The notes below the pieces were generated by a model, which had not been told where the DNA came from, did not search any database, and saw nothing but the letters and a program-made list of their open reading frames with translations. Below, one piece after another: positions 19,486 through 50,761 of a stretch of DNA of 64,000 bases; the stretch's first letter is position 1; each line of letters starts with the position of its first letter. Position numbers and translations under genes: made by a program. The stretch spans positions 2,418,001 through 2,482,000 of the forward strand of contig NC_016633.1 of assembly GCF_000236685.1 (NCBI RefSeq). Direction: 5' to 3'. This DNA is from Sphaerochaeta pleomorpha str. Grapes. Its GTDB lineage: Bacteria; Spirochaetota; Spirochaetia; Sphaerochaetales; Sphaerochaetaceae.

Positions 19486-19497
19486 GAGTAAGCAATC

Positions 19498-32731: not shown

Positions 32732-32814
32732 GTTCTAGGCTACCTCTTTCTGTAAATTGAGACCTACACAGTATCATATGGAACGGGAATTATCACAACA
32801 AGAAAGGAAATACA

Positions 32815-32862
32815 ATGTCCCTGCAAAAGGTTCTACCGTCTGGCAAGTATTGTGTGTTATGA
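32815..32862 (+). CDS. Possible 15-residue leader minicistron before the polymerase gene
   Basis: ATG at 32815 preceded by AAAGGAAATACA opens a 15-codon frame (MSLQKVLPSGKYCVL) whose TGA overlaps the ATG at 32859 (ATGA). The long polymerase frame itself has no good ribosome site at any ATG in this stretch. The minicistron could therefore serve translational coupling or attenuation. This is a reading of the sequence only. Confidence 0.35.
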   Translation: MSLQKVLPSGKYCVL

Positions 32863-34223: not shown

Positions 34224-35758
34224 TGGAGAAGATGTCCCGGACCAGACAAGTTACTATCAATGCAGCAACCAACTATATTAGGTTCTTTTTTTCTATGATT
34301 GTCTCCTTTTGGCTCATTCCTTTTATTATCAGGAGCCTGGGACAGGATATGTACGGTCTCTGGACGCTTTCCTTTTCCCTGATAGGCTTCTTTTCCCTGC
34401 TCGATTTTGGGTTTGGCCTGGGTGTCGTCAAATGGACAGGGGAATCGAGGGTTACCGGCGAATATGAATACCGCAACCATATGCTCAGTACGGTTTTCTT
34501 TGTCTATGTCCTTGTTGCCCTGGTGGGAATGGTGCTGCTCGGTGGGTTCTCGTTTTTCTATGCAAAGATATTCTCCATTCCCAAACCTTTGCAGAGTACT
34601 GCGGTGGCTGTCCTTCTGATACTAGGTTTGCGTTCCCTTCTGATTCAGATTCCTCTCAGTCTTTTTAAAGGTATTTTGTTCGGGGAACAACGGATTTACC
34701 AGATAAATATTATCCAGACCATTGGAACCTTGCTGTATGCCGGTTCTGCCTTTGTTGTTCTCAGTCAAGGCAAAGGTGTGGTCTATCTTGCAATCGTCAA
34801 CTGTGTTTCCTTTCTGCTGGAAAATCTCTTATACTTTCTATTTGCCTATAAAAAAGTTGCAATGCTCTCTATTTCTCCCAGGAAAATACAGAAAAAATAT
34901 TTTCGAGAGGCCGTTTCCTTCAGCTTCTATTCATTTTTGACAACCATTGCTGGCTTGGTGTTGTTCCAAACAGATGTCATTATAATCCAGATAACCTTGA
35001 ACCTTTCCCTGGTTGGCCTCTATTCTGTTGCAATCAAGATTTCCGAGTATGCCTTCCTTCTGACCAAGCAGCTGGTTAATGTCCTTACCCCGCTTATTTC
35101 CGAGCTCAAGGAAAAAAAGGAATACGATTCTATCCGTTTCCTCTTGCTTGATCTTTCGAAATACATAATGGCTACCGGGGTAATCCTTACTGCGACTATC
35201 TATGTCTTTGGCAAGGACCTTCTCCTGTTCTGGGTAGGTTCAGAATTTGCAGATGCAACCATCCCCCTGTTGCTGTTGATGACCTCGTTCATGATTTCCA
35301 TACCGGAACTCGTAGCCTCGAATGTATTGACAATGACCGGTAACCAAAAATTCACGGCAAAGGTTTCCATTCTTTCCATTATTGTGAACATTGGGTCAAG
35401 TCTTTTGCTGGTAAGGCCCCTTGGCCTTGTAGGCATTGCCTTGGGGACGGTTATCTCCAGTTTTGTAAACAATGTACTTTTGACTCTGTCGAGAGCTGCA
35501 AAAGAGTATGAATTTCCAGCCCATTGGTACCTTACCAAGGTATTTTTGCCTACCTGTCTCCCTGGAATCGTACTGGTAGGTATCGGATTTGCAATTACGT
35601 ATTTCTATCCGGTTAATTCTGTGTGGGATTTGATAATCAAAGCTATACCTGGTGGACTTGCCTATCTTATCATCTTCTGGTTTTTCTATACTGACAAGAA
35701 AATGAAAATGACGATTATCGGAAAATTCACGCACAAGCCCCCCGTAAAGGAGATGTAG
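34223..35758 (+). CDS. Polysaccharide repeat-unit flippase (Wzx, MOP superfamily)
   Basis: 511 residues with twelve to fourteen helices. The start TINAATNYIRFFFSMIVSFW and LIPFIIRSLGQDMYGLWTL is characteristic of Wzx/RfbX proteins. The N-terminal Arg/Lys clusters and the GFGLGVVKW loop also fit. It flips undecaprenyl-diphosphate-linked repeat units to the periplasm for the polymerase encoded just before. The start codon overlaps the polymerase stop by one base. Confidence 0.92.
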   Translation: MEKMSRTRQVTINAATNYIRFFFSMIVSFWLIPFIIRSLGQDMYGLWTLSFSLIGFFSLLDFGFGLGVVKWTGESRVTGEYEYRNHMLSTVFFVYVLVALVGMVLLGGFSFFYAKIFSIPKPLQSTAVAVLLILGLRSLLIQIPLSLFKGILFGEQRIYQINIIQTIGTLLYAGSAFVVLSQGKGVVYLAIVNCVSFLLENLLYFLFAYKKVAMLSISPRKIQKKYFREAVSFSFYSFLTTIAGLVLFQTDVIIIQITLNLSLVGLYSVAIKISEYAFLLTKQLVNVLTPLISELKEKKEYDSIRFLLLDLSKYIMATGVILTATIYVFGKDLLLFWVGSEFADATIPLLLLMTSFMISIPELVASNVLTMTGNQKFTAKVSILSIIVNIGSSLLLVRPLGLVGIALGTVISSFVNNVLLTLSRAAKEYEFPAHWYLTKVFLPTCLPGIVLVGIGFAITYFYPVNSVWDLIIKAIPGGLAYLIIFWFFYTDKKMKMTIIGKFTHKPPVKEM

Positions 35759-35761: not shown

Positions 35762-38020
35762 ATGGCAGAGGAAATGGCTTTGAAACAAGAAGAGTTCAGG
35801 TTACCGTTGGAACTTAAAACGGTACTTAAGACGCTTCGCCAGAAATGGGTATGGATTCTCATCATCTGTATTCTCGCCCTTCCTGTGGGAGCCATCTCCG
35901 CCCTGCTTTTGGGGACCCAGAAATACGAAGCTACTACCGTGTTGTTTTATCAACCTATAGAATCCTATGTACCTGATACTTTCAAGATTTACCAGAGTGT
36001 AGGCGAGGGGACTGAGCTTTCCTACGAGCAGGGGGCAGGCTTGGTCAAGCAAGATGCTTCTGATACTTCGTTGTGGAACAAAGTCAACATGGTGAAGACG
36101 CTTCCCAATCTTGAGGAGCTACGGCGTGAGCTTTCTGTAGCAAAAACCCTTGACCAGCTAGGCTCCTCGATTAGTGTCGATGTTGCACGCGATACCAACC
36201 TGATGTTTATCTCTGCAACGTCCGAGGACCCTGAGCAGGCGAAACTTCTTGCAAATACCATCCGGGATATTTTTCTTTCCAACAACAATAGTATGATCAG
36301 CAATGAAATCCAAGACCGGCTGGTGACGTTGAAAATGCAATTTGCATCTGCCACCAACGAATTGGCAACGGCAAAGTCTGAATTCAAAAAATTCATCGAA
36401 TTGCATAATATCAGGGATATAGCCACGGAATCCCCCAAGTATGCTTCGGAATTGGTGGACCTTGAGCTTTCCCTGGAGAAAAACAAGCAACAGGTCGAAA
36501 TCTATAGGCAAAGGGTGGAAAAAATCCAGGAAGCTATCAAGACCGCCAATATGAGTGACATTGAAGAGCAAAAACGTCAGACCGAGGCAAAGTCCGTAGG
36601 TCTTACCTCTGATGAGGCAAATAACAAAATCCAGCAGATTTCCCAGAAAATCGATGAGATTAAGGCAAATAGCACCAATCCAATCGAAGAGGAACGATTA
36701 CAAACACTCTATGAGATTGCCGAGAACGATTATGTACGTGGTTTGATTACCCGCTCGGAATATGAAACAGCTAAATATAACTATGAGTCATTCATGGCAA
36801 GCCATCAGTATTCGGCAGAAATTGAAACGTTGAAAGCTGAAACCGAGAAAGTCAGGTCCATGACTATCGTAGGCGGTGGCGATAGTGTCGCCTCATCCGA
36901 ATATCTAAAACTTGTGCGGGTTATGCTGCTGGATAACCAACTCGAACTTATCAAGCTGGAAATGCAATATGAGGTTGACCAGAAACGCTATGACTTCTTG
37001 AGTAAGAACTATATCAACCTTCCGGAACTCAATCAAAATTATATTGTACTTACAGGAAGGGTAGCCTCCTTGGAAGCAGAGACCCGTGGGCTGGAAAAAG
37101 TACTCACCCAGTTCAAGATTGTAGCAGAGAAAGATCACTCTGATTTCTATGTCATCTCTAATGCCGAGGTACCTTTGTTGCCTCAGGATTCCAATCGGAA
37201 ACTTATTGCAGTAGTCGCCGCATTTATGGTGTTTTTAATTGGCTTTTCAGCTTTGCTCATTCTCGTAATTACCGACCAGCGAATCAAATCGGCAGGGGAT
37301 GCAAAGCAAAAACTGCAAAAACCGGTTATTGCCGTCTTCCCCTTTGAAAAGCACACTGAATTGCTGCTTCCCGATAAGACCAAAGAATCTGAACACATTG
37401 AACGGTATAGGATTCTTGCCAGGCCTCTTCGCTTGAAATATCCGAAGAGTGGTGCAACGTTCCTTATTACCAGTACTGCTGACGGGGAAGGGAAGAGTAC
37501 CCTTGCAATCAACCTTGCAATGGTCTTTGGCCGTCAGGATGAACATGTCCTGGTTATCGATGCCCAGATACGAAAGACCGATTATGAATCTCCCTTCAAA
37601 CCCTACAACCTGAATCTTGGCTCTGATTCTGTCGAAAAAAAGGCCGGGTTGGGGGAATATCTTTCTTTCAAGGTTGCAGATAGTGCCGACCTTATAACCC
37701 AGACAAGCCTTTCCGGGGTCGATATGATTATCCGTGAAGGGGAGGCCGTAGTACCTGATCTTTTGCAATCATCAAGAATGAGGGAACTCATGGAGGAGTT
37801 GAAACAACAGTATTCAATAATCATTATTGAGGGTCCTCCTGTAGGGGATACTGTTGATTCTGAGATTCTTGCCAATTATGCAGATGCGATACTCTATGTT
37901 ACTGCCTGTGATATGTTGAAACCGAATCAGATTACCCAGTCGCTTTCTCGTCTGGGATCTACCCGAATTCCCTTGGAGGGAATTGTCCTTACAAAAGTAA
38001 TGCCCGTATATGTAGATTGA
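35762..38020 (+). CDS. Wzz chain-length protein fused to a BY-kinase-like ATPase
   Basis: 752 residues. A Wzz domain with a helix near 30-50 and a second helix near 480-500 encloses a long coiled coil (about 175-365). A CpsD/CapB-type ATPase follows: Walker A STADGEGKSTLAI near 575 and a Walker A' that reads LVIDAQIRK rather than the usual LLIDADLR. The normal C-terminal Tyr-rich cluster is absent; the protein ends KVMPVYVD with a single Tyr. It should set polymer length with Wzy and Wzx, whose genes adjoin. Tyrosine autophosphorylation is doubtful. AAGGAG precedes the ATG. Confidence 0.9.
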   Translation: MAEEMALKQEEFRLPLELKTVLKTLRQKWVWILIICILALPVGAISALLLGTQKYEATTVLFYQPIESYVPDTFKIYQSVGEGTELSYEQGAGLVKQDASDTSLWNKVNMVKTLPNLEELRRELSVAKTLDQLGSSISVDVARDTNLMFISATSEDPEQAKLLANTIRDIFLSNNNSMISNEIQDRLVTLKMQFASATNELATAKSEFKKFIELHNIRDIATESPKYASELVDLELSLEKNKQQVEIYRQRVEKIQEAIKTANMSDIEEQKRQTEAKSVGLTSDEANNKIQQISQKIDEIKANSTNPIEEERLQTLYEIAENDYVRGLITRSEYETAKYNYESFMASHQYSAEIETLKAETEKVRSMTIVGGGDSVASSEYLKLVRVMLLDNQLELIKLEMQYEVDQKRYDFLSKNYINLPELNQNYIVLTGRVASLEAETRGLEKVLTQFKIVAEKDHSDFYVISNAEVPLLPQDSNRKLIAVVAAFMVFLIGFSALLILVITDQRIKSAGDAKQKLQKPVIAVFPFEKHTELLLPDKTKESEHIERYRILARPLRLKYPKSGATFLITSTADGEGKSTLAINLAMVFGRQDEHVLVIDAQIRKTDYESPFKPYNLNLGSDSVEKKAGLGEYLSFKVADSADLITQTSLSGVDMIIREGEAVVPDLLQSSRMRELMEELKQQYSIIIIEGPPVGDTVDSEILANYADAILYVTACDMLKPNQITQSLSRLGSTRIPLEGIVLTKVMPVYVD

Positions 38021-38038: not shown

Positions 38039-40597
38039 ATGACAAGAGAGGAAATTGACGGTATCAGTTATCGTATTCTGCTTTCCATCGGGGATTCCCT
38101 GGATTTGCGGAAGATGCTTGGAAAAAGCCTTGCTACCTATATGGAGGAACTTTGCTGCACCAGGGGGGCGGTAATCCTGATCGACAAGAAAGAAAGTCCC
38201 ATGTCGCCTTTGTCCATCGCTTATTCGATTCCCCGGAACATTGAAAAGAATGCCTCCTTTATGCAACTCATGCAGAATCTTTTGCATTATACCATTGCAG
38301 ATGATTCGATAACCCTCTCCATTGATGGGGACACAGGAACCTACCATCTCATGAGCATCTCTAGTGTGGGTATTCTCATACTCTATACCCGTTACCTACC
38401 CTTGGACCAAAAGATCCTACAGGCCCTACGTCAGCTTAACCATAAGTTGGGAACGGCGTGTGAAGCTTGTCTGCAAAACACGAAGTTGCAAAAGAGCAGC
38501 CAACAGTTTATGGAAATGGCAAACATGCTGCCCGGTTTGATTATTGAGCTGGACCAGGATTATAAGGTAACTTTTTTTAACCAGCGAACCCAGGAGATTT
38601 TCAAACAAATTGATTCCGATGATTTCCATCCCCAGAAAATATTCGATTTTTTCCCCAAAAATGAGATTGAGCATGTACGGCAACTTCTCAAGTTTGTTGA
38701 ATCCGGGGAGCCGCTGACTTCAGCTGACATCTGGATGAAGAACAGCAGGGGACAGCTCTTTATGGTCAACCTGATCATTTCAGCTATACAGTATATGGGC
38801 AAGGTCACTGGGTTTCGCGGGATTGCCGTTGATATATCCAGCAGGGTAAAACTGGAACAGGACCTTACCTTACGAGATAAATTACTCAATTCGCTTGCAC
38901 TTTCAACACAGGAATTACTGAAATCAAAAGACTTTAAACAAGCGATTTACCATACCTTTGAATTGTTTGGGAATGCAACGAATGTCGATAGGATTTGTTG
39001 CTATATAAATTGTCCTGATCAAGAACATAACGTTAAACATGTCAACAGGTATTCTGGGTGGGTTTCTGACAGATATCTGGGCGAGAGCGATATCTCGGCC
39101 CCTTTTACAATTCTTGGCAGTGCTATAAGTAATTTTATGGATATTCTTGGGTCTAAAAAAGCAGTCACTGCAATCATAAGTGCCCTAAAGCCTGGAATTA
39201 CCAGGACTTTGTTGGAAAAAGAACAGATAAAATCAATTTTAATGCTTCCCCTTTTTGTAAAAGATACGTTTTATGGTTTCCTTTCCATCAGTGACTGTAC
39301 CAGCGAACGGGTTTGGTCGGATATAGAGAAAGACATGTATGGCCTGTTTTCCATATCCATCTCGGAGGCTTTTGAAAGACACCAGGCTGAAAATGAGCTT
39401 CAGTTACTGTATCAGGATATCATGGAGGATCTCGATACCGCACAATCAATCCAGAATTACATCCTCCCCCCGTGGTTCAGACTTCAAAAAGACCTGTTGT
39501 TTTCTTCAAATTACCAACCTTGGGCAAAAATCGGCGGAGACCTTTTCGATTGTATCCAATTACAGGAGAACCGGTATGTAATCTACATTGCCGATATCTC
39601 GGGTCATGGGGTGCAGGCAGCCTTGACAATGACTGCAGTGAAATCAATTTTCAATATGGTAATCAGAAGTGAGCAGGATTTGAATTCTCCCTCTGCCGTA
39701 GTTACCCAGTTGAATGGTATTTTGAGCAAGCGCCTTTTTAACAATAACTATATGACTATGTGTTATTGCCTTGTTGACCTCAATGCAATGACCATTACCA
39801 GCCTGAATGCCGGTCATCCTCCCCTTATGGTTCTGAACCAAAAGACTTCATCGATTACCCTTCTTGATAAAAAGGGTGATATCCCGTTGGGTTGGATTGA
39901 GGACCATGTCTACGATGAGTCTTCAGTGCAGATTCTTCCTTTCTCCTATGATGATACTGTATGCCTTATCACCGACGGGGTGTTTGAGTGTTTCAATGCG
40001 AGAAACGAACAATTGGGTCTCAGCCGGTTCAATGAAATCCTCAAAGAGGAAATCCAGGTTTCCAATTGTATAATGGTTCCCCATGATTGTTTCAGAATAA
40101 TCGATGAGGAAGGGTATACGACCCGCAATGATGATTTTACCTTTGTTTCCTTTCAGGCGTTACCCCAAAAAGAAGAGCAGAAACCTTTCTATTATGAACT
40201 TGTATCAAATTTACATGCGGTTGATGAGGCTTCTGCAGCTTGCGAGACGTATGTGTTGCATTCCGGGGGGAATGAGTTGCAGGCATTCAAGGTACGCTTG
40301 ATTGTGAGTGAGTTCTTGAGCAATATTGTTCAGCATGGTTTGGAGGGGAAGTCAAACGAGATTATTTGCCTTGAAATTTCCTATGGTCAGGAAATAATCA
40401 TTATCTTCAGGGATAATGCCATTGAATGGCCCCTTCCCCTGCAAGAGGATTCCATGGACAGCTTCTTCGACTTGCTGAATAATGATTCCAATACACATGG
40501 CAGGGGCATGCAGATTATCCATTCCTATACCAAAGAAGCGGTTAGACGACGGGCCCATTCCATCAACGAGACAAAGTTCGTCCTGAATTATGAGTAG
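38039..40597 (+). CDS. SpoIIE-type PP2C phosphatase fused to GAF, PAS and an RsbW-like kinase domain
   Basis: 852 residues. A GAF-like region spans 1-150, PAS about 155-285 (MLPGLIIELDQDYKVTFFN) and GAF about 290-440. The PP2C/SpoIIE domain spans about 460-680, with the metal-binding motifs IGGDLFD near 498, ADISGHGVQAAL near 520 and LITDGVFE near 645. The C-terminal HATPase (750-852) has an N-box EFLSNIVQHG, G1 FRDNAIEW and G2 HGRGMQII. Known RsbW-like kinases phosphorylate STAS proteins and SpoIIE-like phosphatases reverse this; both activities in one chain recall SypE. The likely partner is the STAS protein at 47219-47554. The gene follows the Wzz gene by 18 bp. Confidence 0.92.
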   Translation: MTREEIDGISYRILLSIGDSLDLRKMLGKSLATYMEELCCTRGAVILIDKKESPMSPLSIAYSIPRNIEKNASFMQLMQNLLHYTIADDSITLSIDGDTGTYHLMSISSVGILILYTRYLPLDQKILQALRQLNHKLGTACEACLQNTKLQKSSQQFMEMANMLPGLIIELDQDYKVTFFNQRTQEIFKQIDSDDFHPQKIFDFFPKNEIEHVRQLLKFVESGEPLTSADIWMKNSRGQLFMVNLIISAIQYMGKVTGFRGIAVDISSRVKLEQDLTLRDKLLNSLALSTQELLKSKDFKQAIYHTFELFGNATNVDRICCYINCPDQEHNVKHVNRYSGWVSDRYLGESDISAPFTILGSAISNFMDILGSKKAVTAIISALKPGITRTLLEKEQIKSILMLPLFVKDTFYGFLSISDCTSERVWSDIEKDMYGLFSISISEAFERHQAENELQLLYQDIMEDLDTAQSIQNYILPPWFRLQKDLLFSSNYQPWAKIGGDLFDCIQLQENRYVIYIADISGHGVQAALTMTAVKSIFNMVIRSEQDLNSPSAVVTQLNGILSKRLFNNNYMTMCYCLVDLNAMTITSLNAGHPPLMVLNQKTSSITLLDKKGDIPLGWIEDHVYDESSVQILPFSYDDTVCLITDGVFECFNARNEQLGLSRFNEILKEEIQVSNCIMVPHDCFRIIDEEGYTTRNDDFTFVSFQALPQKEEQKPFYYELVSNLHAVDEASAACETYVLHSGGNELQAFKVRLIVSEFLSNIVQHGLEGKSNEIICLEISYGQEIIIIFRDNAIEWPLPLQEDSMDSFFDLLNNDSNTHGRGMQIIHSYTKEAVRRRAHSINETKFVLNYE

Positions 40598-40607
40598 GGG
40601 CAATTCA

Positions 40608-41798
40608 TTATCTGGATGTCTCTTGTCTTGATTTTGTGAGCAGGGTCTCCAGTTCATCTACATAACGGTCGAAGGAGAATTGCGCAATCGCAGTCTCTTG
40701 GCCGGCTTTTGCAATGTTGCCAGACAAAACAGGGTCTGAAAGCAATCTTTTGATTTGTCTGGCAAGATCCTCTTCATTGCCCGGAAGAAAAGTCAGGGCA
40801 TTGTTTTCATCAACAAGGAATTCCCCTTGACCACCGTTTGCGGTGCTTATAACAGGGAGTCCGCTTGCCATTGCCTCAAGATGGGTGAGCCCGAAGGGCT
40901 CTTCCCAGATGGAGGGAAATACAAAAAGGTCATGGTCTCGGTATACACAAGCCATCTGGTCATGGGGGACAAGTCCCTTGAAATCGACAGTGAGGGAATG
41001 TCCCTGTGCTGCCTTTTTCAGTTGCTCGGTATATTCCTCTGGGCCTTTCCCTACAATCGTGAGTGAGAAGGGAGGTAGCGATTTGTCTTTCTGGAGGATG
41101 GACAAGGCTGAGATTAGCGTATGGACCCCCTTGTAGGCATGCAGTTGTCCAGCATAGAGGATTTTCACCGGGGTATGTCTCTCGGAATCCTGTTTTGAAG
41201 GGAATTGCTCGAGAGGGATTCCTTGGTAGATGATTTGGGAATTCCGGATAGAAACCCCTTTTTTGATGAGGTTGCGTTTTACCACGTTGCTGATACAGGT
41301 TGTATTTCTGAATAGGAGGCCTTTGAGGGTAATCTCGGGGTTTATGAAGGTGTCGAGAAGCCAATGGGCGAACTGTTTTGGTAAAAGACCGAAACGGTGG
41401 TCCAAAAAACTGGAAATATTCTCATCGTTGAAGGTATAGACAACCGGGATACCCGATTTTTCGCTAACCTTAGCAGTCGAAGGGGTGAGACGAAGCAAAC
41501 TCCAGATAAATATGACATCAGGTTTTACTGCTTCGATACACTGGGAGGTCACCAGTTTGTTATATCTGGCAGTCTTGATCCTGTCCTTTCGCTGATAGCC
41601 AGCTTGCTGGGCGAAGGGTTGGAAAAGATGAAGGCTTCTCTCAATGGTTCCTTCACGGCGGTTGCTCTGATGGTCGGAAGTTAAAATATGTATCTCATGG
41701 CCACGGTTCTTGAGGTATTCAACCACTTGGCCGCAAAGAATTTCATATCCGCCAAGAACATAAGGTGGATATAAATTCGTTATCACCAGTATTTTCAT
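40608..41798 (-). CDS. Glycosyltransferase family 4
   Basis: 396 residues with a GT-B fold. The start MKILVITNLYPPYVLGGYE has the usual Gly loop. The C-terminal donor-binding motif is EEPFGLTHLEAMASGLPVI near 305, including the E-x7-E pair, and ILYAGQLHAYKG lies near 215. It transfers a sugar from an activated donor, probably a nucleotide sugar, to a growing lipid-linked chain. No ribosome site is seen before the ATG; a promoter abuts it (41805-41833), so the transcript may be leaderless. It lies tail to tail with the SpoIIE gene. Confidence 0.92.
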   Translation of the reverse strand: MKILVITNLYPPYVLGGYEILCGQVVEYLKNRGHEIHILTSDHQSNRREGTIERSLHLFQPFAQQAGYQRKDRIKTARYNKLVTSQCIEAVKPDVIFIWSLLRLTPSTAKVSEKSGIPVVYTFNDENISSFLDHRFGLLPKQFAHWLLDTFINPEITLKGLLFRNTTCISNVVKRNLIKKGVSIRNSQIIYQGIPLEQFPSKQDSERHTPVKILYAGQLHAYKGVHTLISALSILQKDKSLPPFSLTIVGKGPEEYTEQLKKAAQGHSLTVDFKGLVPHDQMACVYRDHDLFVFPSIWEEPFGLTHLEAMASGLPVISTANGGQGEFLVDENNALTFLPGNEEDLARQIKRLLSDPVLSGNIAKAGQETAIAQFSFDRYVDELETLLTKSRQETSR

Positions 41799-41804
41799 GT
41801 AAAG

Positions 41805-41833
41805 AGTGTAATCTATGTTATGATAAATACCAA
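41805..41833 (-). promoter_or_regulatory. Promoter abutting the GT4 start codon
   Basis: On the minus strand a -35 TTGGTA (41828-41833) and a -10 TACACT (41805-41810) are 17 bp apart. The predicted transcription start falls on the A of the ATG at 41798, which would make the mRNA leaderless. Confidence 0.4.
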
Positions 41834-41891
41834 TAAATATTGTATAAAGGATTTCTCATAGAAACATATCCTCACAGGGAGGCGATAGAGA

Positions 41892-43040
41892 ATGGAGTGT
41901 TTAGATTCTGACGACCTTGGTATCCAACTGAAAGGTGAGTTGGCTCCTTGGCCACTGCAAGACGATTTTCGTAAGGATTGGTCACTATTGTTGTCTGAGT
42001 TGCCTTATAAAACCCCTTTTTGTCGGCTGGAGTGGATTGAAATCGGCCTTTCTGTCTATGGTGAGGGAAATCACATGGTTCCTTGCCGATTTTACGACTC
42101 AGACGGGGTCCTCCAGGCAATAGGGTTGTTCAATAAATTGAGCGAGCCCGGAAGGATACTGCCACATTCTGTAGTTCGGACTGTTGAGTACAATTCCCAG
42201 CGAATCTATCCTCTCATTGCCAAAAATGCCTCCATCATGGCAGAGGCTATGAAAACATTTCGTGATTTTTTTGACTCTACTGTAGATTATTATGATTTCT
42301 ATAAATTAGATCCAATGGGAAATGGTCTGGAAGAACTGACAAGCGAACTGGACCGTGCAGGTCTTTCCTATGATATCGAGACGTTTAATGAGCAACCCCA
42401 TTTTGATTTGACCTTATCGTGGGATGATTATTTGAAGGAACGGACTCAGGGCCATCGGAAAAAAATCCGTCGCTATACCCGGTTGATTCAGGAAAAGTAC
42501 CCCGATTACCAATTCATCCGCCTTAGGACACCAGAAGAGTTTGCAGCCTATGGGCTTGATACTGTCCTTGAAGAAATATTGGTTCTATTCCAAAAAAGCT
42601 GGCAGGCCGAATATCTATTGGAGCATGGTAATCTTGCGATGAAGCTCTGGGAGTTTTATTGCCAGGTTTCAAAGGTTTTTGCTCCACTTGGATTGCTGGA
42701 TATCTGTTTACTGAAGGCTGACAATACCCTGCTTGCCTATGAGTTGAACTTGTATGAGGAAGGTAGCCTGTATATGCTTTTCGGAACGTATAACCAAGAA
42801 TTTTCGCAGTGGTCTCCCGGAAATGCAATTCTTTCAGAAATTATTCAGGACAGTATTAAACGGGAATATTGCCGACTTGAATTTGGAGGAGAATACCTCG
42901 AATACAAGAAACTCTGGACAAAGCAATCTACCAATTCCTATCATCTCAGGTTATATGGGAAGACGCTTCGGTCAAATTTGAAATGCCTTGTTATGAAAAA
43001 AAAGAAGGTAAAAGCAAGAAATGATAACCAAGAAAGCTGA
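41892..43040 (+). CDS. CelD/BcsL-type GNAT acyltransferase-like protein
   Basis: 382 residues of the GNAT_acetyltransf_6 type. The central HRKKIRRYTRLI (near 180) and the C-terminal LAYELNLYEEGSLYMLFGTYNQ, then WSPGNAILSEIIQDSI and RLEFGGEYLEYKKLWT, are the hallmark segments of this family. Members are found in exopolysaccharide loci and are thought to add acyl groups to sugars or to act like FemAB enzymes; chemistry is unproven for most. GGGAGG lies 10 nt before the ATG. The 3' end overlaps the next, related gene by 20 bp. Confidence 0.85.
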   Translation: MECLDSDDLGIQLKGELAPWPLQDDFRKDWSLLLSELPYKTPFCRLEWIEIGLSVYGEGNHMVPCRFYDSDGVLQAIGLFNKLSEPGRILPHSVVRTVEYNSQRIYPLIAKNASIMAEAMKTFRDFFDSTVDYYDFYKLDPMGNGLEELTSELDRAGLSYDIETFNEQPHFDLTLSWDDYLKERTQGHRKKIRRYTRLIQEKYPDYQFIRLRTPEEFAAYGLDTVLEEILVLFQKSWQAEYLLEHGNLAMKLWEFYCQVSKVFAPLGLLDICLLKADNTLLAYELNLYEEGSLYMLFGTYNQEFSQWSPGNAILSEIIQDSIKREYCRLEFGGEYLEYKKLWTKQSTNSYHLRLYGKTLRSNLKCLVMKKKKVKARNDNQES

Positions 43041-44844
43041 ATTCGCGCCCAGATTGTCTTTGGTGGCTTTACGGAAATTGACAAGGCGCTTACATGTAGG
43101 AAATGGGCTGTTTGATTATTCGCAGACAGGACTTTTCCAGGTTCCTGTACAAGTTGCAGAAGTTTCTGTCAATGAATTCTATTCCGTTGTCCCCGGTACA
43201 ATCGAAAACATCAAGGCAATGGCTAAATGTCGGAAAATGGAAGATGAGGCCCAGGGGGAAAAGCTCTTTGCCGGTCGGTTACAGAAAGGCGCATTATGTT
43301 TCGTGTTGCTTGATGTGTCAGGAAACCTTGTAGGCTATGGTTGGGTTATGACCTCGGTCAATCTCTTTGAGGATGATGAGAGATATACTTTGTGCTGTTC
43401 CCGTCAACAAGCATACATTTTCGATACTTTCATTCAGGCTGAAGAACGGGGAAAGCAGCTCTATAGGTTTTTGATCAGCGGAATCCAAGAGGCCCTCCAA
43501 AAGGAAGGAAGAACAGAATTCTTCGTTCTTATTGACAAGGCCAATACGATAAGTATTCGTGCCCATCGGAAATTAGGGGTCTTAGAATTGGAATGGTATC
43601 GGTATTTCTGTTTGTTTGGGGTGACTTTCCAGTCCTTGCATGCCAAACAAAGGACAAGAAGAAGGTTGGGGGTTTTTCACGGACCAAGGTTGTTTGAATC
43701 CTTTTCGCTTCCTTCTGCTGATATTTCGGATTTTTCCCTCTCCGTTACTGCTTTGGAAAGCGAAACTGATTGGGTTCCCCATTGTGATGCTATTTCCCAG
43801 CTTGAACTGGATTTGCATGGTACCCTTTCTCCTTTTCATTTGTTCTCTGCTGCCCATATCTGGTGGAAATCTGATATTCTTGGTCGTTATCCCCTTTTCC
43901 TGATAGAGATTGCGAAAGGTCCTGACCGAAAGCTTGTAGGATATGGGCTGTTTCGCTTAGTTACCGATACTACAAGATTTGGAAAACCAAAGGAACTGAT
44001 TGCTTTTGATGACCTGTACTTCATGGATAACTGTTTTTTCGTTCATTCTTTGGATCTGTGCCACTATACCTTGCAGAAAATCCTGGAAGAACGCAGGAAC
44101 TCTCAAAACATCCGGAAGATCACCGGGGCTGACCTGATATCTTGGCATCGTATGCCTCCTTCTGAATTGGTTTTGGAGACCTCTGCCATCTTTTCCCGAT
44201 GGGCTGTTAAGAAAGAGGCAGATTACCCAATCGTGGAAATCCATGATGCTCAGGCATTCTTTTCTGGGGCAATTGCCATACATAACCTCCATGATATCAA
44301 GAAACAGGAAAAAAGAATACGTAACGCTTTTTCAGAGGTTCCAAAGTTGAATAGTATTGACCTTGGACTTCTTGATGAGGCTTCCTTTACAAGGGAATCG
44401 ACCGAGTTTTTAGAGTTGCTTAGGAAGACCTGGCAATATAAATGGATGGAAGAAAGTCCAAAAGTAGATGTTGCTGTATATGAATCAAAATTAATTGACT
44501 ATACGAAAGTATGGGCAGGCTCGCTCTTTCCAGTTTTATATTTTCTTGACCTAGGCGAGAAACACATTGCCTTTCTGTATGCCTTGCGGGCAAAAGATCG
44601 TTGTTGGTGCCTGATGATAGGCTATGACCCTGACTTCAAGACGTATAGTCCTGGGAAAACAGTGTTTCTGGGAATGCTTCGGAATATGAGCGAATCAGGA
44701 GTGAAACAGTTCCATCTTGGCGGTAATGTCGTGGGATGGAAGAACGATTGGCAATCGTATTGCTCGCAAGTCTATGTACAAGAGTATTTTTTCAATCCTA
44801 AAGGAATCCTTTTTAACGGCTTGAAAATATTACTGGGTAGATGA
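43021..44844 (+). CDS. Two-part GNAT/CelD-like acyltransferase-like protein
   Basis: 607 residues. The N-terminal 200 resemble a GNAT fold (VGYGWVMTS, QAYIFDTFIQAEERGKQLYR, then SIRAHRKLGVLEL near 185, typical for the acetyl-CoA site). The C-terminal 150 resemble the CelD/BcsL fold (ALRAKDRCWCLMIGYDPDFK, SPGKTVFLGMLRNMSE, FHLGGNVVGWKNDWQ), like the gene before it. The middle is not recognised. It may modify the same polymer twice or be a duplication and fusion. The 20-bp overlap with the previous gene implies coupling, and its 3' end overlaps the GH9 gene on the other strand by 15 bp. Confidence 0.72.
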   Translation: MITKKAEFAPRLSLVALRKLTRRLHVGNGLFDYSQTGLFQVPVQVAEVSVNEFYSVVPGTIENIKAMAKCRKMEDEAQGEKLFAGRLQKGALCFVLLDVSGNLVGYGWVMTSVNLFEDDERYTLCCSRQQAYIFDTFIQAEERGKQLYRFLISGIQEALQKEGRTEFFVLIDKANTISIRAHRKLGVLELEWYRYFCLFGVTFQSLHAKQRTRRRLGVFHGPRLFESFSLPSADISDFSLSVTALESETDWVPHCDAISQLELDLHGTLSPFHLFSAAHIWWKSDILGRYPLFLIEIAKGPDRKLVGYGLFRLVTDTTRFGKPKELIAFDDLYFMDNCFFVHSLDLCHYTLQKILEERRNSQNIRKITGADLISWHRMPPSELVLETSAIFSRWAVKKEADYPIVEIHDAQAFFSGAIAIHNLHDIKKQEKRIRNAFSEVPKLNSIDLGLLDEASFTRESTEFLELLRKTWQYKWMEESPKVDVAVYESKLIDYTKVWAGSLFPVLYFLDLGEKHIAFLYALRAKDRCWCLMIGYDPDFKTYSPGKTVFLGMLRNMSESGVKQFHLGGNVVGWKNDWQSYCSQVYVQEYFFNPKGILFNGLKILLGR

Positions 44845-47076
44845 CTTTCCTTCGGTTGGGGTGTTCAGAACCCCATACAGGCATATATTCCAGACCATGG
44901 TTTCCCATACCGTAAATTCGTTATTGTTGACCAGCGACCAGCCATCAGCCCAGCGTCTCTGCAATGGTAGCTTGTCCCAGCTGGGAAACAGTGTATTTGA
45001 TACAATCATCTGGTATTCTGCTTTACTACGTTCCTCTGAAGGCCCATAGACTAAGATTCCTGGGACATTTCCAAGACCTTGCTCGTTTCTGGTGAACCAG
45101 GAGTCGAGATGAAGGGGGCTTTGCACTTGGTCTACGCCAAGCCCAGTGACAAAGCTTTTTCCCAGTGGATTGAGACCTAAATCATAATCGCCGAATTGAC
45201 AGAGGATGTCGAATAGGCTTTGTTTTTTCTTTGCATCGGTTTCCATTCTATAGGCAAAGGCATATACATCTGCGTATCGCCCTTGGGCAGTGGCAGCTCC
45301 CCATCCGTAGGTTTTCGTGGCTCCTTGGGGATAGAAGGCTTTCTCCATATCGAAACCCATGTAGCCTCCCTTGTCCGCTTGGTCGAACACAAGCTTTTTC
45401 AGTGTCTCGGCTAGCATAAGGTCATGGGGTTTCTGTGTTAACAGATAACTGCTGAAATGCACCGTCTGAATCTGCGCATAGGCGTTTCCCGGCCTATATT
45501 GCTGGGGCCAATACCCATCTTCAACCAAGAGTTTTGTTGCCAGCGTTTCAAATAAAATTTGAAGCTTCTCTTGCAGGTGTTCCAGTTGGGGCTCAAAGAG
45601 AGGAAGGGCAAGGGAAAGTTGCAGTGAGGCATAGAGCATGGCCGATGTCTCGGTATTTTCTGTATAGAAGCCTTTGTCTGTCATTTTTGTGTCCAGGTAA
45701 TTCCAGGCAAGCATTGCTCGGTCAAAGAGCTCCTGTGCCTTGGTCCTCCAAAGAGGGAAGGCGTAAAGCAACCTGGCAGCCTGGGCCATCATCCCCGCCC
45801 CGTAGGCGGTAACCTCTTCTGATACTGCCCATGTCCCATACACGAGTGAATCGGTAGCTGCATTGGTTTTCCCATATTCCGGGTGGCCGCTGGTTTCTGT
45901 CCCTGCCATAATCCCACCCCTCTGATGGTCCCTCTCATCCAGTATCTGGAGTTGTTCCCAGCTTGCTATTCCCCACAGTGCCTCATCAAGGAAGTCGGGT
46001 AAACCATTTCCCGATTCCGGGAGATTGTATTGGCTGTCTATGAAATGATCGGGGAAGGCCTCATAATAGCCTAACAGTAGGATTGGAATGATGGTATGGT
46101 AGGGGCGCCGGTCGAAATCCCCTGCGTCGTGGTAGCCCCCGTATATTGCCAGCATTGGACTGCGGGAATCTACTTCGATTTTACCGGAAGCAGACCAGGT
46201 ATTGCGGGTAAGGCCGACTTCTGTATGGCAGGCATCCCTGGTGAATTCCGTATAAGGTTTTTGCAGGGCAATTCCACAGCGTTGGTGGTATAAGCCCCTG
46301 GTATAGGTGTAGGCAATATGTTCCACTGCTGTATAGGAAATTTCAAAGGGATAGGAAACCCCACATCCTTCAATCTGGATTACATAGGGGCCTCCCTCAG
46401 GGACAGCGGAAAGATCGAGCCTATACACATATTCACCTGAACTGACCAGATTCTTCTCTACTTTTGTATCATCTCCTCGAAACTCAGCCTTTCCCATAAC
46501 TAGTACGTTCTGAGTTTTTGCATCGAGTACTTTGTATGCGGGGGTGGAGGGAAACAGGAGTGATCCCCCGTTTCCCAGGAAAATACCAAGGTTTGCATAT
46601 CGGACGCTACTTTGGGGGTGGTAGCCTTCCTGATTTACTTTAATCGATTCACAGAACATGGTTTTATCGTCGAACAGGAAGGAAGTCGACCCAAAAGGGC
46701 CGGAGACCATATAGGATTCACCATTTTGAAATGATTCATCCAGAACCAGATATATTTTATATTCGGTCTCGATTGGATAGTCTCCCTTTTGGGTTTTTGG
46801 AAGTTCATCCCTGCTTCTGGCTGCTACATACACTGTCTGGGGATGCCTAGCATTGACCACCCAATCGGAAGAGGTGCTCTTTAGAGGATTCGAGACCAGG
46901 TTGTCCGGATTGAAAGAATCGGTAAAGGAAACAACCAGTACCTTTGGAGCTGCCATTGACACAGTGAGGCTAGGTTGCTCCACTTTTCCCCCGTTACAGG
47001 AAAGCAATACCACAGAGAGGTATGACAAGAGGAGGAAAAGTGTTCTTGTTTTTTTCAGTGTACCGACATTATGCAT
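44830..47076 (-). CDS. Glycoside hydrolase family 9 (cellulase-like) lipoprotein
   Basis: 748 residues. A lipoprotein signal ends in LLSC with the lipidated Cys at 27. A beta-sandwich CelD_N-like region (about 135-250; VNQEGYHPQSS) is followed by the (alpha/alpha)6 barrel with GGYHDAGDFDRR near 310, the catalytic Asp motif of GH9, and a late Glu candidate in NNNEFTVWETMVW. The consensus DYNA end is absent. GH9 enzymes cut beta-1,4-glucan-type chains, so a role in trimming the locus polymer is plausible but unproven. There is no proper ribosome site; the -10 at 47082 lies 6 bp from the ATG, so the transcript may be leaderless. Confidence 0.88.
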   Translation of the reverse strand: MHNVGTLKKTRTLFLLLSYLSVVLLSCNGGKVEQPSLTVSMAAPKVLVVSFTDSFNPDNLVSNPLKSTSSDWVVNARHPQTVYVAARSRDELPKTQKGDYPIETEYKIYLVLDESFQNGESYMVSGPFGSTSFLFDDKTMFCESIKVNQEGYHPQSSVRYANLGIFLGNGGSLLFPSTPAYKVLDAKTQNVLVMGKAEFRGDDTKVEKNLVSSGEYVYRLDLSAVPEGGPYVIQIEGCGVSYPFEISYTAVEHIAYTYTRGLYHQRCGIALQKPYTEFTRDACHTEVGLTRNTWSASGKIEVDSRSPMLAIYGGYHDAGDFDRRPYHTIIPILLLGYYEAFPDHFIDSQYNLPESGNGLPDFLDEALWGIASWEQLQILDERDHQRGGIMAGTETSGHPEYGKTNAATDSLVYGTWAVSEEVTAYGAGMMAQAARLLYAFPLWRTKAQELFDRAMLAWNYLDTKMTDKGFYTENTETSAMLYASLQLSLALPLFEPQLEHLQEKLQILFETLATKLLVEDGYWPQQYRPGNAYAQIQTVHFSSYLLTQKPHDLMLAETLKKLVFDQADKGGYMGFDMEKAFYPQGATKTYGWGAATAQGRYADVYAFAYRMETDAKKKQSLFDILCQFGDYDLGLNPLGKSFVTGLGVDQVQSPLHLDSWFTRNEQGLGNVPGILVYGPSEERSKAEYQMIVSNTLFPSWDKLPLQRRWADGWSLVNNNEFTVWETMVWNICLYGVLNTPTEGKSSTQ

Positions 47077-47081
47077 GCCTT

Positions 47082-47110
47082 ACTATAAAACCGGTTGTCC
47101 CCCGATGCAA
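47082..47110 (-). promoter_or_regulatory. Promoter abutting the GH9 start codon
   Basis: On the minus strand a -35 TTGCAT (47105-47110) and a -10 TATAGT (47082-47087) have a 17-bp spacer. The predicted start is at or beside the A of the ATG (47076). Confidence 0.5.
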
Positions 47111-47218
47111 TGCCTAAAATAGGGCAACTGCAAAGTGCCTGATGATTATTTCTCCAAAATTTGCTATAGGTATGGTATAAATATGAATATATGAAACATC
47201 TGTTTCGGAGGATTACCC

Positions 47219-47554
47219 ATGATTGCAACGAAAGAAGCTGAAGCTATGGTCATCGAAGTCGAGTCTACAACTTTAACGGCAGCGAATGCCAAGGAGTTCA
47301 AGGCTGCTCTCGAACCGTATCTCGACGCTGAGATGAACATAGTCATCAACCTTAATAGAGTAACCTTTCTCGATAGTTCCGGGCTTGGTATTTTCCTTTT
47401 CTGCCTGAAAAAACTGAATCAGAAGGGTGGCGATGTGAAGCTTTGCAACGTTACCAAACCTGTTCGGGTTTTGTTTGAACTGGTCCGTCTCCACCAGATT
47501 ATCGAGGTGTTCAACACGAAGGAAGAAGCTTTAGCCTCGTTCTCCCATACCTAG
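47219..47554 (+). CDS. Anti-sigma-factor antagonist (STAS domain)
   Basis: 111 residues consisting of a single STAS domain. The phosphorylatable Ser lies in TFLDSSGLGIFL near residue 58 and the fold is complete. SpoIIAA/RsbV-type proteins switch partners according to phosphorylation. No sigma factor or separate anti-sigma gene is in the window; the RsbW-like kinase and PP2C phosphatase at 38039-40597 are the obvious modifiers. As in the SypA/SypE pair of Vibrio fischeri, the STAS protein may act directly on polysaccharide production. GGAGG precedes the ATG, and it leads the plus-strand series 47219-50761. Confidence 0.93.
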   Translation: MIATKEAEAMVIEVESTTLTAANAKEFKAALEPYLDAEMNIVINLNRVTFLDSSGLGIFLFCLKKLNQKGGDVKLCNVTKPVRVLFELVRLHQIIEVFNTKEEALASFSHT

Positions 47555-47593: not shown

Positions 47594-48799
47594 ATGCCTA
47601 AGGAAAAGAAGAAAAAGAATTCCCTGAGTCTTTGTATTTTCATCGATGCACTGGGCTGGGAAATTCTCAAGAACCATTCGTTTCTCGATGATGAACTTGT
47701 GCACAAGCAATCATTACAGACCATCTTTGGCTATAGCGCTACCTGCGATCCAACAATCCTGACTGGTTTGCTTCCCCGTTCCCACGGGCATTTTTCCTTT
47801 TATGCCTACGATCCTGTCGGATCGCCTTTCAAGGGATCTCCCTTTATCCAGATGATGCGCCTGGTTCCCAAGGCGTTGTCCAGTCGGAACAGGGTACGTT
47901 CCGTTGCAGGAAAAATCATCAGGAGACGGTTACAGTACACCGGCTATTTCAACATATATAACATGCCTTTTCGGATGTTGCACTATTTTGACTATACCGA
48001 AAAAAAAGACCTGTATCAGAAGGGTGGGATTAATAGTGGGAGTCCAACTATTATGGACTATGCCCGCGACAATAACATCGATTTCTTCCTTGCCGACTGG
48101 AAGGCTTGTGAGATGGAGAATCTGGAAAACCTTTCATCAGTAATTAAGGATGAGGCAAGAAACTGTTCCTTCGCCTATCTGTATATGGCTTCCATGGATG
48201 CAATCCTGCATCAATATGGAAAAGACCATACAGAAGTAGATAGAAAAATAGATTGGTATGAAGGGAAGATCCGGACACTCCTTGCAGATGCCCGCTCAAA
48301 CTATGAGGAAGTAAGGCTTTTTATTTTCTCAGACCATGGAATGACGGACGTGCATACTGATTTTGACCTCAGGCAGGTTATTGACCGCATTGGTTTGCAG
48401 TTTGGCAAGGACTATGCAGTTGTCTATGATTCAACGATGGCTCGGTTCTGGTTCCTTACAGAAGGTGCCGAACAGAAAATAAGGGATGCTTTGCAAACCG
48501 TATCCCAAGGGACAATACTAACTGATTCTGTTCTGCATGAATGGGGTGTAGACTTCCCGGATAAACGGTACGGGGATCTTTTTTTCCTGATGAATGCCGG
48601 GGTCCTGATAGTTCCCAGCCATATGGGTGAACGTACTATTGCCGGCATGCATGGTTATTCCCCTGAGGATGCCGATTCGACTGCCTCTTTTTCTTCCAAT
48701 GTGGAATTGGCTACCAATCCTGTCCGTCTGGATGATCTCTATAGGCTGATGAAGCAGGAAATAGACCGATGTCTGGAACAGCCAAGAAGGGAAACGTAA
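47594..48799 (+). CDS. Alkaline-phosphatase-superfamily phosphodiesterase/phosphotransferase-like protein
   Basis: 401 residues. The superfamily metal and nucleophile motifs appear in order: Asp in FIDALGWEIL near 17, a Thr/Ser nucleophile candidate in TCDPTILTGLLP near 52, MASMDAILHQYGKDH near 205, FSDHGMTDVH near 245 and MHGYSPEDAD near 350. No signal peptide is seen, so it appears cytoplasmic, unusual for phosphodiesterases of this fold. It may hydrolyse or transfer phospho-groups on sugar-nucleotide or lipid-linked intermediates. The function is not known. AAAGGAA lies before the ATG. It is followed closely by a GT2 and an NTase-fold gene. Confidence 0.8.
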   Translation: MPKEKKKKNSLSLCIFIDALGWEILKNHSFLDDELVHKQSLQTIFGYSATCDPTILTGLLPRSHGHFSFYAYDPVGSPFKGSPFIQMMRLVPKALSSRNRVRSVAGKIIRRRLQYTGYFNIYNMPFRMLHYFDYTEKKDLYQKGGINSGSPTIMDYARDNNIDFFLADWKACEMENLENLSSVIKDEARNCSFAYLYMASMDAILHQYGKDHTEVDRKIDWYEGKIRTLLADARSNYEEVRLFIFSDHGMTDVHTDFDLRQVIDRIGLQFGKDYAVVYDSTMARFWFLTEGAEQKIRDALQTVSQGTILTDSVLHEWGVDFPDKRYGDLFFLMNAGVLIVPSHMGERTIAGMHGYSPEDADSTASFSSNVELATNPVRLDDLYRLMKQEIDRCLEQPRRET

Positions 48800-48801
48800 G
48801 C

Positions 48802-49674
48802 ATGACACTTCCCATTCCTGTAGTAGTCAGGTCGCATAATGACAAGCAGCTTATAGAGCCTACCCTGCAAATGTTAGAAAAGCAGACCTTTGCGTGTGAG
48901 ATACATGTTTTCGACAACGATTCTACCGATGGCACACTGGATATTCTTCCTTTGTACCCTGTATGTGTCCATAGAGTCCCTGAGGGGACTTATGTTCCAG
49001 GTTCTGTCCTCAATGAGGCGATGCAATCTATCCAGTCTTCCTATCCGTATGTAGTCTTTTTGAATTCCGACTGCACCCCTGTCGATGCCTATTGGCTGGA
49101 AAACTTGATTGCGGGCTTCAGTGATGATTCCGTTGCCGCAGTGTTTTCAAGGCAGATGCCCCGACCCGATTGCTTTCCCTTGTTTGCCAAGGACACCGAG
49201 GATACCTTTGGAGACGGGTCAAGGCAGAAATATTGGAAACATTGTTTTTCCATGGCTTCTTCTGCGATACGCAGAGAATGCTGGGAAACAATGCAGTTTA
49301 GTATAGATATACAGTATTCTGAAGACATCGACTGGACTTGGAGAGCTCGCCAGAAGGGATGGACCATAGCATATGCAGCGGAGTCGAAAGTATATCATTC
49401 CCATAACTATACATTTGCACAATTCAAGAAACGCCAAAAAGGCGAAGGGAAAGCCGATGCCCAGATTTTCAACTGGACTAGGTGGGAACGGTCGTTTCTC
49501 CGTTATTCCCTCCTTCCATATCTCCGTCAGGTAAAAAGTGATGCATCATATGTATGGAAACAGAAGAAGGCCGGGCTATTGCCCTATTCCCTTGCTTTGC
49601 GATTCTCCCAAATGGTTGGGCGAAGACAAGGCTTTACGGAAGGTCTGAGAAAGAAGGATACAAGCAATGGGTAA
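48802..49674 (+). CDS. Glycosyltransferase family 2
   Basis: About 290 residues with a GT-A fold. It has VVVRSHNDKQLIEPTLQML at the start, VFDNDSTDG near 36, a DxD-like NSDCTP near 86, and the acceptor/base region SEDIDWTWRARQKGW near 170. The frame opens at 48769 inside the previous gene; the ATG at 48802 gives the normal N-terminus. It probably adds a sugar to the locus product. The 3' end overlaps the NTase-like gene by 8 bp. Confidence 0.9.
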   Translation: MTLPIPVVVRSHNDKQLIEPTLQMLEKQTFACEIHVFDNDSTDGTLDILPLYPVCVHRVPEGTYVPGSVLNEAMQSIQSSYPYVVFLNSDCTPVDAYWLENLIAGFSDDSVAAVFSRQMPRPDCFPLFAKDTEDTFGDGSRQKYWKHCFSMASSAIRRECWETMQFSIDIQYSEDIDWTWRARQKGWTIAYAAESKVYHSHNYTFAQFKKRQKGEGKADAQIFNWTRWERSFLRYSLLPYLRQVKSDASYVWKQKKAGLLPYSLALRFSQMVGRRQGFTEGLRKKDTSNG

Positions 49675-50761
49675 ACTGCCAATGGTATATGCACGGGAAG
49701 GGTCGGTAGGATTCAATGAGTTTATAGGGAAAACCCTTAAGTCCCTTGCAAAGGACGTTCGCAATGCGATGCCTGCTGATTTTGTCGCTCTGGTTCTCGG
49801 GGGCGGATATGGCAGGGGGGATGGGGCCTGTGTCCTTCGTGAAGGAAAAGAGTCTCTCTACAATGATTTCGATTTGTTCCTGATTGTAGAAAAGAACATG
49901 GCTGTCCCCCCTGATGTGATTGCCGTTACCAAAAAATACGAACATATGCTCAACATCGAAGTCGATATTGGAAAGCCCCTCACCGTCAACGATATCAAGC
50001 ATCTTCCCCTCCAGTTGATGTATCAGGACCTTCTGCAGGCCCACGTGGTCCTGCTCGGGGATGAGAAAATCCTTACGGAAAATGCCCCTTCCTATTTGCT
50101 TGAACCTATACCCCAGGTCGATGCCCTTCGCCTCCTTTTAAACAGGGGGTCGGGTCTTCTGCAGGCTATCAGAGAAGCCCAGGCGTTAACCCTTGACCCT
50201 GCCCACCAAATGCCTGATCCTGATTTCATTCGCAGAAACAGGGAAAAATGTACGCTTTCCTTTGGAGACAGCCTCTTGATACAGGCAGGAAATTATGTAC
50301 CACCCTTGCATGAACGACTTAAAAGGGTAAAAGGAATCAAACCAACAATAGGTTTTCAAAACCTTGGAGAATTGAAAGGCCTGTATGAAGAGGCTGTGAC
50401 TTTCAAGCTTCGGCCGGACAGCCTTCCTTTCCAGCAGAATACCCTTGAAGACCTTCGCTTGATTGCCGGTTATTGGGTTTCTGTACTCCTCTATGTGGAA
50501 TCAAAACGAACTGGGAAATCATGGGCGTCGGCGAGTGCCTATGCTGATGATTCCTTCATTCGGGAAAACGAGCAGCATACGCATAAGAAAATCCCTAGGA
50601 ACCTGGTGAAGAATTTCAAACGTGGAAAGGTATCCCTTCGCTATCCGCGCGAACAATTATACCGGCAACTGGCCGGGTTATTGGATAACGTGCAAGTGTC
50701 GAACCCCAAGTGGAACCGGGAAGCAGAGGCTTTCCTTTCTCTGTGGAAAATATACAACTAA
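49667..50761 (+). CDS. Nucleotidyltransferase-fold protein of unknown function
   Basis: 364 residues. The N-terminal 140 show a Pol-beta-type nucleotidyltransferase pattern: LVLGGGYGRGDG near 43-54 and NDFDLFLIV near 66-74, which supply the Gly motif and the DxD metal pair. A further acid (NIEVDIGKPL) lies near 104. The C-terminal 200 residues are helical and not recognised. By fold it could transfer a nucleotide or phospho-group to a protein, sugar or lipid; there is no direct evidence. AAGGA precedes the ATG, and it overlaps the GT2 gene by 8 bp and the opposite-strand gene at 50758 by 4 bp. Confidence 0.65.
   Translation: MGKLPMVYAREGSVGFNEFIGKTLKSLAKDVRNAMPADFVALVLGGGYGRGDGACVLREGKESLYNDFDLFLIVEKNMAVPPDVIAVTKKYEHMLNIEVDIGKPLTVNDIKHLPLQLMYQDLLQAHVVLLGDEKILTENAPSYLLEPIPQVDALRLLLNRGSGLLQAIREAQALTLDPAHQMPDPDFIRRNREKCTLSFGDSLLIQAGNYVPPLHERLKRVKGIKPTIGFQNLGELKGLYEEAVTFKLRPDSLPFQQNTLEDLRLIAGYWVSVLLYVESKRTGKSWASASAYADDSFIRENEQHTHKKIPRNLVKNFKRGKVSLRYPREQLYRQLAGLLDNVQVSNPKWNREAEAFLSLWKIYN

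Follow-up and report, generated by a model that had tools for sequence, protein, structure and literature searches.

What does a partner switch control when it lies within a polysaccharide locus and no sigma factor is close by? The question is raised by a 64,000-nucleotide stretch of the genome of Sphaerochaeta pleomorpha str. Grapes (the window; positions 2418001–2482000 of a single 3.59-Mb contig), in which one gene encodes a protein with a sensor part, a PP2C-type phosphatase domain and an RsbW-type kinase domain (PP2C-kinase), and another gene of the same locus encodes a single-domain STAS protein. With a probability of roughly 0.55, we consider that the two form a partner switch that is not directed at a sigma factor, is dedicated to this one polysaccharide locus and acts, without a change in transcription, on early polymer assembly, namely on the priming sugar transferase BacT and/or on HEX, a protein with nucleotidyltransferase-like and hexapeptide parts. 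This reading is built on the presence of both proteins, their domains, their invariant catalytic and acceptor residues, their genetic pairing and their linkage to the genes for BacT, HEX and NT (a protein with a nucleotidyltransferase-like motif) in two phyla.

Domains and residues of the two proteins

An earlier note, made from the letters of the window, had described one protein that unites GAF/PAS sensing, a PP2C phosphatase and an RsbW-like kinase, and Pfam, the NCBIfam PAS model and the fold matches of an AlphaFold2 model all agree with this description. The PP2C and kinase domains score over their Pfam cut-offs (Table 1), the PAS (160–265) and GAF (387–441) matches fall under theirs, and the NCBIfam PAS model is over its own cut-off. 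In the AlphaFold2 model, built from 11 sequences (pLDDT 76.7, pTM 0.48), a GAF fold occupies residues ~269–456 (VIA Z 21.4, root-mean-square deviation (rmsd) 2.9 Å, 173 aligned residues, against 3w2z), and a 48-residue helix stands ahead of the PP2C domain, which is followed by the kinase. Judged by secondary structure alone, the N-terminus (1–146) looks GAF-like; fold matches barely reach it. No receiver domain was found in this protein by Pfam or in the model. Foldseek ranks 3ke6 first, the RsbU-RsbW portion of Mycobacterium tuberculosis Rv1364c (VIA Z 20.9), and given the rmsd of 14.2 Å over 325 residues, the PP2C and kinase domains are probably placed differently in the two.

The catalytic residues were compared in an alignment of 16 proteins, comprising five of the 11 Sphaerochaetaceae homologues, the one from locus L109 and ten more distant proteins (L116, L122, L123, L124, L126 and the rest of the 59 loci from the genome scan described below were left out). 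The metal-binding aspartates of the PP2C domain (501, 504, 519, 646, 698 and 699) and, in the kinase, E758 and N762 of the N-box together with D792 and G823 are invariant in all 16.

The lone STAS protein with a phosphoserine site that the earlier note had placed in the locus is likewise confirmed. Its STAS match has an E value of 6.2e-20 and its motif is D52-S53-S54-G55. Ser53, the predicted phosphoacceptor, is presumably the homologue of SpoIIAA S58 and RsbV S56; serine occupies this position in 40/40 STAS proteins of the group and in 11/11 and 15/15 sequences of further alignments, the 15-sequence alignment consisting of five of the 11 Sphaerochaetaceae proteins, that of L109 and nine from the Cloacimonadota phylum. 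Arg90 is found in 38 of the 40, against one of 31 other STAS proteins compared; G278, which belongs to a different spirochaete family, has Gln here. In a FastTree tree, from which one locus (L070) and the SulP STAS were dropped for too short or weak a match, the Sphaerochaetaceae and Cloacimonadota proteins fall into one clade (support 0.997), which also holds five other STAS proteins. The weak STAS matches of other Sphaerochaetaceae carry a different motif, ISSAGLR in most; G129 (weak STAS), one of 11 genomes, was left out of one comparison. A PP2C domain with its aspartates, an HATPase_c_2 domain with its N-box and a single-domain STAS protein with its serine are thus three of the features expected of a partner switch of the RsbU/RsbW/RsbV type.

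Few other partners are on offer in the genome. The STAS protein of the locus is the only stand-alone one over the Pfam cut-off; the second of the two STAS matches forms the tail of a SulP-transporter-like sequence, an unlikely partner. Two SpoIIE and two HATPase_c_2 matches exceed their cut-offs genome-wide, and the second of each (frames of 402 and 145 residues) lies in a cluster that reads as ferredoxin/hydrogenase genes and has no STAS gene, so that a second kinase or phosphatase is unlikely to be the real partner. These two clusters hold the second SpoIIE protein and the small RsbW-like protein at L083 2764–7554 and L084 3188–5299.

Linkage of the pair in Spirochaetota and Cloacimonadota

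The earlier note had proposed a survey of the pair in other spirochaete loci. Among 119 Sphaerochaetaceae genomes, 11 encode a PP2C-kinase over its whole length, and the same 11 encode the STAS protein (E < 1e-40). Both genes share a contig and a strand in 11/11, with the PP2C-kinase gene upstream and ~3.6 to 7 kb between them. They belong to a conserved block that begins with the genes for Wzy, Wzx, the BY-kinase-like protein, PP2C-kinase, a GT4 glycosyltransferase, a FemAB-like protein (variable), GH9 and STAS, and continues after STAS with those for the phosphodiesterase family protein, GT2, NT, HEX, WecG, BacT and three GT4 glycosyltransferases; ManC is encoded at one or the other edge. 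The block ends in a GGDEF-like and an Lcl_C protein in all nine loci with a long enough contig (the window and eight others). In these Sphaerochaetaceae loci the GH9 gene adjoins the STAS gene and is divergent from it.

In Spirochaetota at large, the profile from the 15-sequence STAS alignment matched 122 of 392 Spirochaetota genomes at E 1e-22, with scores of 82–120 bits except in three Sphaerochaetaceae. Of 27 such wider loci that were read (L289–L315), a single one (L289, in G278) has a BacT context, so most of these matches are probably other STAS proteins. On its 2.68-Mb contig, G278 holds a five-gene set of PP2C-kinase (597 residues), BacT (313), STAS (109), HEX (485) and NT (452), with no other recognised polysaccharide genes beside it.

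When 84,980 species genomes were searched using the PP2C-kinase alignment, 59 loci were obtained, the named relatives including Sphaerochaeta species. Whole-length relatives were confined to Sphaerochaetaceae/Spirochaetales, and relatives of the PP2C-plus-kinase part (33–40% identity) occurred in Cloacimonadota and in metagenome-assembled genomes labelled Armatimonadota. Since two of the latter (G123 and G124) recur in the phylum sample around the Cloacimonadota genome G128, their label is probably wrong. The Cloacimonadota proteins read as the same enzyme core with a receiver-PAS front, and their loci contain homologues of GT2, GT4, WecG, BacT, HEX, NT, BY-kinase, Wzy and Wzx. In the nine Cloacimonadota-type loci first read, the STAS gene lies directly between those for BacT and HEX in every case. 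The earlier note had mentioned neither this recurrence in a second phylum nor the GGDEF-like protein that closes the block in Sphaerochaetaceae.

This arrangement recurs in a larger sample of the Cloacimonadota phylum (124 genomes), of which 27 encode a STAS protein of this type (at least 133 bits), 28 a PP2C-kinase (at least 516 bits) and 25 both, with thresholds chosen after the scores were known. The Fisher p value of 1e-20 for the pair is an overstatement, given these post hoc thresholds, the relatedness of the genomes and the training sequences supplied by nine of the 124. Two of the genomes with a PP2C-kinase and no high-scoring STAS, G208 and G209, have a STAS protein at 104–111 bits. 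BacT and HEX are both neighbours of STAS in 22 of the 27 loci, HEX alone in two (one at a contig edge, the other with a stop in STAS) and neither in three; the STAS gene of L245, masked by an overlapping open reading frame (ORF) call, was counted by position, and in L242 a 112-residue ORF call separates STAS from HEX. Ten STAS genes lie in paralogous operons 24–382 nt from a PP2C-kinase gene, and these tandem neighbours support the pairing of the proteins themselves.

These distributions bear on whether the module serves the locus at all. It might instead be a passenger, with the enzyme acting on the STAS protein to regulate something general while both are merely carried in a mobile polysaccharide locus. 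All block genes share one phyletic pattern, as a passenger would predict, and the locus appears to be gained or lost as a whole. Orthologues of the GGDEF-like protein are present in the 11 locus genomes and in three more, two of which (G059 and G115) keep only a truncated remnant beside ManC and Lcl (L197 9783–10379; L198 1840–2703); since the flanks in G059 equal those of the locus in G086, G059 has seemingly lost it. The association with BacT, HEX and NT nevertheless persists in another phylum and in the bare five-gene set of G278, and we find a passenger role very unlikely.

Candidate targets of the proposed switch

If adjacency reflects function, the output of the switch would be among BacT, HEX and NT. 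Towards its C-terminus HEX aligns with the catalytic half of BacT in a profile comparison (hhalign probability 86.8, E 4.2e-6) and lacks the conserved motifs of BacT; HEX may thus be a degenerate partner of this transferase. The BacT of the window carries a ~230-residue N-terminal extension that is absent from Cloacimonadota BacT (~240–276 residues in all).

The mechanism we propose begins at the sensor part, which would act through the helical linker to bias the PP2C-kinase between phosphatase and kinase activity; sensors of this type are proposed in PMC12143880 to control PP2C dimers via a linker. The enzyme would thereby set the phosphorylation state of Ser53, and one form of the STAS protein would bind an early-assembly enzyme of the same locus, most likely BacT and/or HEX, raising or lowering polymer synthesis while transcription stays unchanged. 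We infer the phosphorylation, its direction and the target. A narrower version, in which the STAS protein directly gates the priming step by phosphorylation-dependent binding to BacT and to HEX as its degenerate companion, in a post-translational module that Spirochaetota and Cloacimonadota share, is offered tentatively, as something possible that we would not bet on.

Several observations weigh against a dedicated switch of this kind. The other locus genes co-occur equally well in Sphaerochaetaceae, and as all block genes share one pattern, the co-occurrence of the pair in this family is not independent of inheritance of the locus. In the same family the STAS gene does not adjoin that for BacT, and the G1 box of the kinase is without the usual glycine. 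In the Cloacimonadota sample, no PP2C-kinase was detected beside the STAS protein of G135 and of G138, and G190 has a PP2C-kinase with no high-scoring STAS. Operon adjacency is no proof of contact. Finally, a group-2 sigma factor, which is a possible target, is encoded elsewhere in the genome.

The earlier note had seen no sigma factor near the pair. None was met within the polysaccharide locus, and the three Sigma70_r2 matches of the genome all lie more than 1.8 Mb from the window. By eye, these are a 687-residue frame of RpoD size, a 294-residue group-2 factor and a 172-residue extracytoplasmic function (ECF) factor, the last followed by a gene that reads as its anti-sigma factor. The kinase could in principle be the anti-sigma factor of the 294-residue (RpoD/RpoS-like) protein, with STAS as antagonist and the locus as one target of that sigma factor, and RpoS is bound by CrsR and HsbR (PMC6482189), whose phosphatase and kinase come in the same order. 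We consider this unlikely, as the group-2 gene lies ~1.8 Mb from the locus and the genes that keep company with the pair in two phyla are those for BacT, HEX and NT rather than sigma genes.

A further candidate target is the GGDEF-like protein at the end of the block. In nine of nine aligned orthologues its active-site motif is GSDKF or GGDKF and its I-site, RKSD, is intact. A motif scan of the genome's 30 GGDEF matches found Lys at position 4 in the locus protein alone; the scan recognised a motif for most matches and none clearly for several, mostly weak ones. Going by these motifs, the protein more likely binds cyclic di-GMP (c-di-GMP) as a receptor than makes it. The structure predicted for it was of low quality (pLDDT 55) and was not used. 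The STAS protein might act on this inactive receptor, as HsbA does on HsbD and SiaC on SiaD, so that the switch and c-di-GMP would converge; control of diguanylate cyclases by STAS proteins is known (PMC8457831). The conservation of the gene in all 11 locus genomes, its place at the end of every sufficiently long locus and its altered active site fit this view. So does its front, whose profile is matched by the receiver-PAS region that opens the PP2C-kinases of Cloacimonadota (L125, 72.9 bits; L114, 58.5; L113, 56.1, the last mainly across the PAS part), and these matches indicate that sensor parts are exchanged between PP2C-kinase and GGDEF modules. Such fronts are common, however, and the shared one may reflect ordinary module exchange. 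Moreover, G017, which has neither the pair nor the locus, retains an intact copy that is more degenerate (46% identical, motif DRDRF; L195 9013–10344). As no GGDEF gene turned up in those parts of the Cloacimonadota loci and of the G278 operon that were read, the protein is rejected as the common target in both phyla, and action of the switch on it in Sphaerochaetaceae is quite unlikely in our estimation.

The arrangement of these genes in the window is given in Table 1. Upstream, at 17412–20568, three consecutive ORFs read as MreB-like (GIDLGTxN starts).

Table 1. Features of the polysaccharide locus, numbered from the first base of the window
Feature	Position	Strand	Basis and remarks
Wzy-type polymerase	32757–34223	+	Pfam
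Wzx-type flippase	34223–35758	+	Pfam
Wzz/BY-kinase-like polymer length protein	35762–38020	+	18 bases separate it from the PP2C-kinase gene downstream
PP2C-kinase, 852 residues: GAF/PAS sensor part, PP2C (SpoIIE), C-terminal RsbW-type HATPase_c_2	38039–40597	+	Pfam, AlphaFold2, fold matches, orthologues, catalytic residues
PP2C (SpoIIE) domain, residues 510–704	39566–40150	+	Pfam E 5.8e-35, over cut-off
RsbW-type kinase domain HATPase_c_2, residues 724–840	40208–40558	+	Pfam E 4.2e-7; 30.5 bits against cut-off 27.4
GT4 glycosyltransferase	40608–41798	-	Pfam
GH9 glycoside hydrolase (cellulase family)	44830–47076	-	Pfam
STAS switch protein (putative), 111 residues	47219–47554	+	Pfam
Ser53 codon, predicted phosphoacceptor	47375–47377	+	Ser in 40/40 STAS of the group
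Type I phosphodiesterase/nucleotide pyrophosphatase family protein	47594–48799	+	Pfam; first gene after STAS
Glycosyltransferase, family-2-like (GT2)	48769–49674	+	named by inspection of the sequence; Cloacimonadota loci have a homologue
NT, nucleotidyltransferase-like motif	49667–50761	+	motif recognised by eye, no match in Pfam; belongs to the five-gene core
HEX, nucleotidyltransferase-like and hexapeptide, C-terminal part like a degenerate BacT; candidate target	50758–52191	-	Pfam, hhalign, adjacency
WecG/TagA/CpsF glycosyltransferase	52188–52958	-	Pfam
BacT, priming sugar transferase (Bac_transf); candidate target	52960–54237	-	Pfam; adjoins STAS in Cloacimonadota and G278
Three GT4 glycosyltransferases (54239–55408, 55405–56589, 56546–57808)	54239–57808	-	Pfam
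Receiver-like-PAS-GGDEF protein, degenerate active site GSDKF, intact RxxD I-site	57963–59294	+	Pfam, loci, alignment; conserved locus end
GSDKF in place of GGDEF	59007–59021	+	Lys at position 4 in 9/9 aligned orthologues
Lcl_C-domain protein	59306–59875	+	Pfam, loci; conserved beside the GGDEF-like gene

Comparison with known partner switches

Searches of the literature on partner switching/STAS, exopolysaccharide, spirochetes, Sphaerochaeta and Cloacimonadota, in which subscription papers are sparsely covered, returned nothing on this module.

The HsbR/HsbA system of Pseudomonas aeruginosa and the CrsR/CrsA system of Shewanella are not known to lie in polysaccharide loci. Both resemble the pair of the window in having a phosphatase followed by a kinase and a separate STAS protein, and HsbR/HsbA controls biofilm (PMC6482189). 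FlgM, RpoS and the diguanylate cyclase HsbD are among the outputs of the HsbR/CrsR systems. The two systems differ from the pair in that HsbR and CrsR have a receiver domain of their own, as do the Cloacimonadota relatives, whereas the window protein does not. Rv1364c, the top structural match, shares the PAS-phosphatase-kinase order, but its STAS domain is fused at the C-terminus according to PMC12143880, and that of the window is a separate gene. The earlier note had taken the phosphatase-first order for a sign of independent assembly, an argument that we drop, as the same order is known in Rv1364c, HsbR and CrsR.

SiaABCD of P. aeruginosa is also a biofilm switch with a phosphatase, a kinase, a STAS-like protein and a GGDEF protein (PMC8457831). 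The PP2C domain of SiaA (6k4e) is a structural match to the PP2C-kinase model, and the window protein scores 34.5 with the NCBIfam SiaA equivalog, whose cut-off is 700. In SiaABCD, however, SiaB is a separate kinase, SiaC is a DUF1987 protein phosphorylated at Thr68 and SiaD is an active cyclase. For the HmpV system of Nostoc punctiforme, PMC10120452 mentions a STAS protein suggested to act on an unknown downstream target, as the STAS protein of the window would act on a target of its own.

The earlier note had likened the pair to SypE/SypA of Vibrio fischeri. Like that system, as described in PMC10120452 and PMC4517449, the window combines a dual kinase/phosphatase with a lone STAS protein in a polysaccharide locus, and what remains of the likeness is a conserved pair linked with polysaccharide genes rather than with a sigma gene. 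The architecture of SypE is another: SypE has a kinase-receiver-phosphatase order (PMC10120452), in place of the GAF/PAS-phosphatase-kinase order of the window, and by its domains the PP2C-kinase is architecturally closer to Rv1364c and HsbR. A functional analogy to SypE/SypA is reasonable; to count the pair as a member of that system is not, given the different build of SypE. If the dedicated switch proposed here is real, partner switching would control a surface-polymer assembly enzyme directly, beyond sigma factors and diguanylate cyclases. SypA has no known action on a sigma factor, and its direct target is unknown (PMC10120452; PMC4517449); the module found in two phyla names BacT, HEX and NT as candidates for such a role.

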